Source: Bacteroidota bacterium (GTDB lineage Bacteria > Bacteroidota > Ignavibacteria > UBA10030 > UBA8401). Taken from it: DNA of 64,000 bases. Below, in pieces: positions 33,153 to 45,640 of the stretch. A program made the position numbers and the translations under genes. The DNA lies in assembly GCA_021796215.1 (NCBI GenBank), contig JAJYOK010000016.1:1-64000 (forward strand), given 5' to 3'. Below the pieces are notes generated by a model that worked only from the letters and a program-made list of their open reading frames with translations, was not told the origin of the DNA and did not search any database. Numbering within the stretch: the stretch's first letter is position 1; each line of letters opens with the position of its first letter.

Positions 33153-33310
33153 CTTCTCTATCTTCAATCAAGCAATGGCGCGGCAATAAAATGAGAGCAA
33201 CGTTTACAAATAATAGCTGCGTAAAATATATCTAATGAAAAGCACTCGGTCAACTGATGTTTTGAGTTCAGGGGAAATATGGAGAGAAGTCGAAAAGGAT
33301 TTTTTGTGAA

Positions 33311-33370
33311 ATCTAGAGGGTTCTCCGCCTGAGGCGGATGCGTCTTTGGCGCAGAATCTCTGACCTCCCG
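33311..33370 (-). pseudogene. partial tRNA-Val 3' copy with an interrupted T-loop
   Basis: Immediately 3' of the intact tRNA-Val is a second copy of its variable-loop/T-arm segment. On the minus strand GAGGTCAGAGATTC and GAACCCTCTAGA match the real tRNA (GAGGTCAGAGGTTC and GAACCCTCTAGA), but a 30-bp double hairpin separates them, exactly after TTC of the T-loop. The copy lacks acceptor 5' strand, D-arm and anticodon arm, so it cannot be a functional tRNA. Confidence 0.8.
33324..33353. repeat. 30-bp double-hairpin element in the tRNA-Val pseudo T-loop
   Basis: Two adjacent stem-loops on the plus strand: TCCGCC-TGA-GGCGGA and TGCGTC-TTT-GGCGCA. The 30-bp form in the tRNA-Thr array (45257-45286) agrees at 25 of 30 positions, and several differences occur in pairs that keep the stems. 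Confidence 0.8.
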
Positions 33371-33375
33371 TTTTG

Positions 33376-33450
33376 TGGGCTCTAGAGGGTTCGAACCTCT
33401 GACCTCTACCGTGTCAAGGTAGCGCTCTAAACCAACTGAGCTAAGAGCCC
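33376..33450 (-). tRNA. tRNA-Val (anticodon GAC)
   Basis: Complete cloverleaf on the minus strand: acceptor GGGCTCT/AGAGCCC, D-arm GCTC...GAGC, anticodon stem CTACC/GGTAG with loop TTGACAC (anticodon GAC), T-arm AGAGG-TTCGAAC-CCTCT, discriminator A. CCA is not encoded. A defective 3' copy follows five bases downstream. Confidence 0.97.
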
Positions 33451-44954: not shown

Positions 44955-44955
44955 A

Positions 44956-45568
44956 TCAGAACCCACGTCCCGACCTTGTCGCGATTTCGAAACCTCTCAT
45001 GGTATAAAATGCTGGTGTGTGAGCTGAAGGTGGGATTTTGCGCCTGAGCGCATGAGCCTTCGGCTCAGAACCCACGTCCCGACCTTGTCGCGATTTCGAA
45101 ACCTCTCATGATATAAAATGCTGGTGTGTGAGCTGAAGGTGGGATTTTGCGCCTGAGCGCATGAGCCTTTGGCTCAGAACCCACGTCCCGACCTTGTCGG
45201 GATTACGAAGTCTCTCATGGTATAAAATGCTGGTGTGTGAGCTGAAGGTGGGATTTTGCGCCTGAGGCGTATGAGCCTTTGGCTCAGAACCCACGTCCCG
45301 ACCTTGTCGCGATTTCGAAACCTCTCATGGTATAAAATGATGGTGTGTGAGCTGAAGGTGGGATTTTGCGCCTGAGCGCATGAGCCTTTGGCTCAGAACC
45401 CACGTCCCGACCTTGTCGGGATTACGAAGTCTCTCATGGTATAAAATGCTGGTGTGTGAGCTGAAGGTGGGATTTTGCGCCTGAGGCGTATGAGCCTTTG
45501 GCTCAGAACCCACGTCCCGACCTTGTCGCGATTTCGAAACCTCTCATGGTATAAAATGATGGTGTGTG
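44956..45568 (-). repeat. tandem array of tRNA-Thr 3' ends with split T-loops
   Basis: Units start at 44956, 45065, 45174, 45284, 45393 and 45503 (period 109-110 bp) and run into the intact tRNA-Thr at 45569. On the minus strand each carries the tRNA's T-arm and acceptor 3' strand (CGTGGGTTC ... AATCCCACCTTCAGCTCAC). In the five copies away from the intact gene a 29-30 bp double hairpin splits the T-loop after TTC (plus-strand 45039-45067, 45148-45176, 45257-45286, 45367-45395, 45476-45505). Each unit also holds a CCCGACCTTGTCGGG hairpin or a variant. Open frames across the array are a by-product of the repeat and not genes. Confidence 0.9.
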
Positions 45569-45640
45569 AGCTGAAGGTGGGATTTGAACCCACGACCTGC
45601 GGTTTACGAAACCGCTGCTCTACCGCTGAGCTACTTCAGC
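45569..45640 (-). tRNA. tRNA-Thr (anticodon CGT)
   Basis: Cloverleaf on the minus strand: acceptor GCTGAAG/CTTCAGC, D-arm GCTC...GAGC, anticodon stem GCGGT/ACCGC with loop TTCGTAA (anticodon CGT), T-arm GTGGG-TTCAAAT-CCCAC, discriminator T. CCA is not encoded. It is directly followed by the tandem array of its own 3' end. Confidence 0.97.

Follow-up and report, generated by a model that had tools for sequence, protein, structure and literature searches.

Hairpin-plugged partial tRNA copies in an Ignavibacteria genome as probable severed ends left by ORF-less relatives of GIY-YIG homing-type elements

In fungal mitochondria, endonuclease ORFs are reported to carry replacement ends of the genes in which they reside and to leave the native end downstream, as described for atp6 of Allomyces and for atp6, atp9, cox2 and nad3 of Glomus, with a GIY-YIG ORF in atp9 (PMC3630166). 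Phage SegB, an endonuclease of the GIY-YIG type, is reported to cut within tRNA genes and to drive the tandem amplification of a tRNA-endonuclease segment, and no isotype preference has been reported for it (PMC13096335). The double-hairpin elements of Allomyces mitochondria and related repetitive hairpin elements are small, paired and dispersed, and are found without target duplications (PMC2800124).

The window analyzed here (the whole stretch of 64,000 nucleotides, positions 1 to 64,000 of contig JAJYOK010000016.1) contains partial copies of tRNA-Val(gac) and tRNA-Thr(cgt) in which the T-loop is interrupted by two adjacent hairpins (double hairpin, DH). These copies are probably the severed ends of tRNA genes that were split by ORF-less relatives of small, mobile, target-restoring GIY-YIG homing-type elements. 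The loci resemble the fungal gene-end elements in that a gene is split, a new 3' part is supplied, the native part lies downstream, an endonuclease ORF is placed between the two and the gene ends are foreign. Unlike in these elements, the genes targeted are tRNA genes of bacterial chromosomes, of which the 5' or the 3' half can be replaced. Hairpins plug the severed part, tandem forms without an ORF are frequent, and the protein is no more than a GIY-YIG domain. As in SegB and other free-standing GIY-YIG homing endonucleases (PMC13096335, PMC2988022), a free-standing GIY-YIG gene is found beside tRNA genes. In contrast to SegB, the protein consists of about 84 aa without a DNA-binding domain and has no phage match at the sensitivity used, the tRNA gene is split and restored with hairpin plugs, and the lineages follow the tRNA isotype. 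The loci combine SegB-like and fungal gene-end features on bacterial chromosomes, and the odd parts when compared to known target-restoring endonuclease elements are the bare domain and the hairpin plug, the latter without a counterpart in the literature examined. No paper linking GIY-YIG, split tRNA genes and bacterial chromosomes was found in the open-access literature.

The intact tRNA-Val(gac) gene is located at 33375–33450 on the minus strand, as are all features of the window described below. In the tRNA sense, the sequence continues with AAAACGG, a copy of the tRNA part 5' of the split point (GAGGTCAGAGATTC, 33354–33367), the 30-nt DH plug (TGCGCCAAAGACGCA TCCGCCTCAGGCGGA, 33324–33353), GAACCCTCTAGA and a decayed acceptor end. 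The severed 3' part, in which the acceptor end has changed from GCC to TTT, occupies 33302–33323 together with the start of the flank, and the partial copy as a whole spans 33302–33367. An earlier note on this DNA had described a double hairpin at the T-loop of such a copy, five bases after tRNA-Val; the insert could be placed exactly between C56 and R57, and the gap is in fact about seven bases. Compared to the empty allele of G001, a genome of the same genus, the locus has gained a block of 69 bp (33324–33392), made up of the tRNA 3' half (R57 to the end, 33375–33392), a 7-nt spacer, the copy of the 5' strand of the T-stem and the DH; it is this tRNA-Val half that we infer to be the newcomer. 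A native flank anchor (GTTGACCGAGTGC, 33242–33254) is present also 3' of tRNA-Val in G001.

The intact tRNA-Thr(cgt) gene (45568–45640) is accompanied by an ORF-less array (44955–45567) of five complete units of 109/110 bp and a truncated sixth, which ends early, after GGGTTCTGA. The five complete units have a DH at the same T-loop position as in the Val copy, of 30 nt in the unit nearest to the tRNA gene (45476–45505) and in the third (45257–45286), and of 29 nt in the second (45367–45395), fourth (45148–45176) and fifth (45039–45067). In addition, a single hairpin (TCGCGACAAGGTCGGGA, 45515–45531) stands in place of the 3' anticodon strand and the variable loop, with further copies, some of the form TCCCGACAAGGTCGGGA, at 45405–45421, 45296–45312, 45186–45202, 45077–45093 and 44968–44984. 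The Val and Thr inserts are identical at 25 of 30 positions, in agreement with the earlier note, and their differences indeed pair up; the T-G and G-T wobbles that it listed exist on the plus strand only and are C.A in the tRNA sense. No GIY-YIG gene is present in the Val and Thr inserts or elsewhere in the 64-kb window. A different split copy, particular to the sister genome G001, lies 5' of tRNA-Thr(cgt) there (L367), suggesting that this gene has been struck more than once.

In this genome 14 of the 46 tRNA genes are affected (13 identified by search, and tRNA-Val(gac)), and a tRNA census of three genomes of the genus showed that occupancy varies from genome to genome. Two layouts are found: an intact tRNA followed by a GIY-YIG gene and the 3' part of a tRNA, or the 5' part of a tRNA followed by a GIY-YIG gene and an intact tRNA. 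Replacement part, ORF, native part and native flank follow in that order at loci of the Asn, Pro(ggg) and Ser(gga) type; Val(gac) and Thr(cgt) lack the ORF. Tandem arrays occur with an ORF (L210, with the DH at the same T-loop position) and without one (the Thr array of the window, a 140-bp Val array in G022 and a 79-bp Ala array in G002). The tRNA-Ser(tga) gene of this genome lies between ORF-less units and a GIY-YIG element that share the same junction hairpin, which ties ORF-less inserts such as those of Val and Thr to the GIY-YIG loci.

We compared the flanks of filled and empty alleles in 22 pairings, 13 of them informative, at nine tRNA loci within one genus (Asn, Pro(ggg), Pro(tgg), Pro(cgg), Ser(cga), Val(gac), Val(cac), Leu(caa) and Asp). 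In all 13 informative comparisons, sequence matching the flank of the empty allele starts again past the severed copy (z 4.3–35.7); next to the intact tRNA this was never the case (z at most 3.5). For Val(gac) the values are 11.9 and -0.9, respectively. The gained block therefore consists of one tRNA half, a spacer or ORF, and hairpins. Taken alone, this test fits insertion with restoration of the tRNA as well as a tandem duplication of the half followed by insertion. Insertion with restoration is favored because the tRNA alleles at the filled Pro(tgg) and Val(cac) loci bear little resemblance to those of either empty genome, and because the anticodon stem of Pro(ggg) has been recoded from ACTTG/CAAGT to ACTAC/GTAGT. 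Compared to two sister species at the same locus, tRNA-Pro(tgg) (L327, G000:C37:101000-102300) and tRNA-Val(cac) (L331, G000:C7:4700-6000) have alleles that look as if swapped in.

Within this order, members of the tRNA-linked GIY-YIG subfamily adjoin tRNA genes and invariably share their strand; a second subfamily, which is more distant, does not adjoin them. At least 5 of about 11 such ORFs in this genome lie within 50 nt of a tRNA gene (P about 7e-11). The protein of about 84 aa contains PF01541 essentially alone. An AlphaFold2 model (mean pLDDT 86) has UPF0213, SLX1 and the catalytic domain of I-TevI as its nearest solved folds, and the catalytic residues Y5, Y16, G18, R26 and E62 are conserved at 96–100% in 66 sequences. 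The dN/dS values of 0.08–0.38 in six ortholog pairs indicate purifying selection. The GIY-YIG lineages follow the tRNA isotype (21 changes on the tree; mean 38.2 and minimum 34 in 200 shufflings) and not the host (35 changes; 34.7 when shuffled), on a tree of 84 columns in which many forks are unsettled. The nuclease domain with its catalytic residues, the occupied and empty alleles (nine loci, one genus) and the target-specific lineages are features of free-standing homing endonucleases. Only the catalytic domain is present, without a DNA-binding domain for a long recognition site such as that of I-TevI, and we therefore call the protein homing-type rather than a proven homing endonuclease. 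Carriage of the gene by phages or plasmids was considered and rejected, as the phage and plasmid collections gave no match at the sensitivity used.

Hairpins at the junctions occupy the T-loop (as DH), occupy the D-loop or wholly replace the anticodon arm, and they are constant in form and varied in sequence. One or two hairpins abut the partial copy at nearly all of 40 GIY-YIG junctions, with a mean folding z of -2.5. Conservation of the fold, for which the earlier note had proposed selection, is backed by covariation in 40 T-loop cases from named genomes, where pairs 2 and 3 of hairpin 1 are Watson-Crick in 40 and 38 cases, respectively (about 20 and 19 after shuffling). Wobble pairs on the tRNA strand of these cases number 11 G.U and 9 C.A, about equally common, and choosing the folding strand by wobbles was therefore abandoned as carrying no signal. 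The long alternative hairpin raised the question of an integron attC site, which was rejected as the GTTRRRY core is absent, and an Rfam search returned tRNAs and no other family.

A covariance model of the T-arm with its insert found matches in 19 of 41 relatives, and the best matches examined have the insert at TTC/RA and adjoin intact tRNAs that represent many isotypes. When named genomes were scanned with a strict pattern, at least 116 stretches were obtained, distributed over Ignavibacteria, Bacteroidota, many Patescibacteria, a Nanoarchaeota bin, Margulisbacteria/WOR-1, Omnitrophota, Lentisphaerae and Kiritimatiellae, where single taxon labels may be wrong since most DH-bearing genomes are metagenome-assembled bins. 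Among 86 hits that were read, 44 have an intact tRNA on the same strand within 300 nt upstream, representing 21 anticodons, and 28 of these 44 contain an exact 15-nt copy of the tRNA 3' end. In an even draw of 395 genomes over the phylum the strict pattern was present in 10, 6 of which belong to this order. A mechanism acting on unrelated tRNAs at one loop position, as suggested from Val and Thr only, is thus strongly supported by 21 anticodons from several phyla. The T-loop is a recurrent site, as the earlier note had it, but one of several, since split copies with unrelated hairpins occur in D-loops and anticodon arms as well. On a contig binned as Nanoarchaeota (L187, JAUYPG010000059.1; taxon from the bin label only), a T-loop DH lies 83 nt after tRNA-Val(tac).

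Hits scattered without tRNA association had been named as evidence against a tRNA-linked element. The association with tRNAs is clear, but DHs are also found away from them: the degenerate pattern TNNGCCNNAGGCNNATNNGCCTNNGGCNNA has 69 sites in this genome of 3.37 Mb, and its reversed control has none, which excludes chance matches as the source. The flanks of dispersed DHs tend to CTTY/RAAG, and flanking stems with a score of at least 9 were observed 6 times where 0.83 were expected. A REP-like hairpin of G010, near other GIY-YIG genes, has a DH in its loop, with the empty form in the same contig and without a target duplication; at dispersed DHs in general, short direct repeats were seen by eye at a few sites and none was consistent. 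REP and BIME repeats are dispersed, paired palindromes between genes that are associated with RAYT (Y1) transposases. The DH shares the dispersed paired palindromes with these repeats, but a Y1 transposase is not required: the RAYT/Y1 mobilizer that the earlier note had suggested looking for is missing from G023, which has T-loop DHs and no Y1 match, and GIY-YIG ORFs are found directly beside split tRNAs instead. As two adjacent hairpins that are dispersed and inserted without target duplication, the DH fits a double-hairpin element by form. The likeness to the elements of Allomyces is one of form only, with no homology claimed; the DH occurs in bacteria and is linked to split tRNAs and to GIY-YIG genes. 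Where no tRNA is near, its behavior is that of a REP or double-hairpin repeat, and the plug may have been recruited from the dispersed family. Several DH copies (L219, L231, L255) lie within runs of AAGTTCAAGTTC repeats, in line with the TTC/RA preference and with no tRNA present.

Under the preferred reading, the element would sit within the tRNA gene, between C56 and R57 in the case of Val, and would resupply the half that it cuts off, so that the tRNA stays functional. The original half would be left beyond the far end of the element, plugged by one or two hairpins. In full-length versions the stand-alone GIY-YIG gene separates the intact tRNA from the plugged half, and the Thr array would be a tandem multiple of the ORF-less element. 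The GIY-YIG protein would cleave the element-free tRNA gene, after which recombinational repair from an element-bearing locus would copy in the element together with tRNA sequence and thereby spread it. The hairpin plug may prevent the leftover half from refolding with the other half of the real tRNA, may prevent recutting, or both, and ORF-less forms were presumably moved with help in trans. The uninterrupted loop of the intact tRNA counts against a cutting model, and the missing GIY-YIG gene of the Val and Thr inserts, the missing DNA-binding domain of the protein and the DHs far from tRNAs likewise count against this reading.

It is unlikely that the DH is an autonomous mobile hairpin of the REP or double-hairpin type having a preference for hairpin loops centered on TTY/RA, with the partial tRNA copies arising as separate tandem duplications and hits on sole tRNA genes being lethal and hence unseen. 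The 69 dispersed copies, the CTTY/RAAG flanks with their excess of flanking stems and the filled REP-like loop of G010 all speak for such an element. However, unrelated hairpins, single and double, fill the same tRNA positions (L108 versus L130; L127 and the L026 locus), and nearly all junctions adjoining GIY-YIG genes have a hairpin where neutral targets ought often to be empty; the GIY-YIG genes and the foreign tRNA alleles are left unexplained. Arrays with near-identical units and periods of 62–140 bp recall another process, in which tRNA 3' ends are duplicated in tandem in the ordinary way and slippage or fold-back synthesis gives rise to the hairpins. The repeats 3' of E. coli tyrT, which specify rtT RNA, are of this kind, being tandem and containing the tRNA 3' end. 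At a Pro(ggg) locus of G023 (L014) the duplicated copy even takes in the terminator, which counts against insertion with restoration. We nevertheless regard simple duplication as quite improbable: the two parts are separated by spacer or ORF sequence that is no duplicate of the flank, DH sequences are found again in other phyla and tRNA alleles are replaced. The units also differ from the tyrT repeats in their hairpin plugs and acquired spacers and have no Rfam rtT match.

Covarying hairpins, a T-stem that is mostly kept and three-way junction folds predicted for some units could also be expected if the plugged T-arm were functional at the transcript level, either as a decoy or to signal processing, with the element being incidental. 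This is highly improbable, since the similar numbers of G.U and C.A on the tRNA strand give no sign of selection at the RNA level there, Val and some Thr units fold at minimum energy into one long hairpin, and sister genomes differ in occupancy. Use of tRNA 3' ends with their subsequent restoration is widespread among integrases, and remnants of attachment sites of a tyrosine integrase using the T-loop could be envisaged. We give this almost no weight, as units of about 60–450 bp contain a GIY-YIG gene at most, those of 69–140 bp are too small for an integrase gene, and many splits duplicate the 5' half and lie in the D- or anticodon arms. Splitting and restoration by GIY-YIG homing-type elements remains the reading that we prefer.

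More tentatively, and with a chance that we put slightly below even, the loci may represent an undescribed class of chromosomal elements in several phyla that splits and rebuilds tRNA genes, swaps their alleles between species and uses a bare SLX1/UPF0213-like GIY-YIG domain with isotype-specific targeting. The hairpin plugs would be a working part of these elements, and the ORF-less and tandem forms non-autonomous derivatives. Although tRNA genes are essential and under tight constraint, about a third of those in this genome are split and rebuilt. If the proposal is correct, nuclease elements carry tRNA alleles between species, which would help to explain odd tRNAs, tRNA-flanking repeats and tRNA pseudogenes in Patescibacteria and other poorly studied phyla, and would provide a bacterial, tRNA-targeted counterpart to the fungal gene-end elements and to phage SegB. 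It raises two questions, by what means a GIY-YIG domain on its own locates one particular tRNA and what purpose the hairpin plug serves.

The second GIY-YIG subfamily, which is not tied to tRNAs, lies between REP-like palindromes in L104 (G010:C85:5600-11000) and L125 (G030:C11:50000-52200). The palindromes around these genes are GTCATGCCGAAC..GTTTCGGCATCTA and GTCATCCTGAGCG..GAAGGATG, some with a DH in the loop, and the subfamily and its palindromes are possibly a GIY-YIG counterpart of REP/RAYT systems. At three Ser(gga) loci (L210, L225, L031) the ORF of the tRNA-linked subfamily enters the T-stem and the DH and stops at a TGA in hairpin 1 (...GFSAEG).
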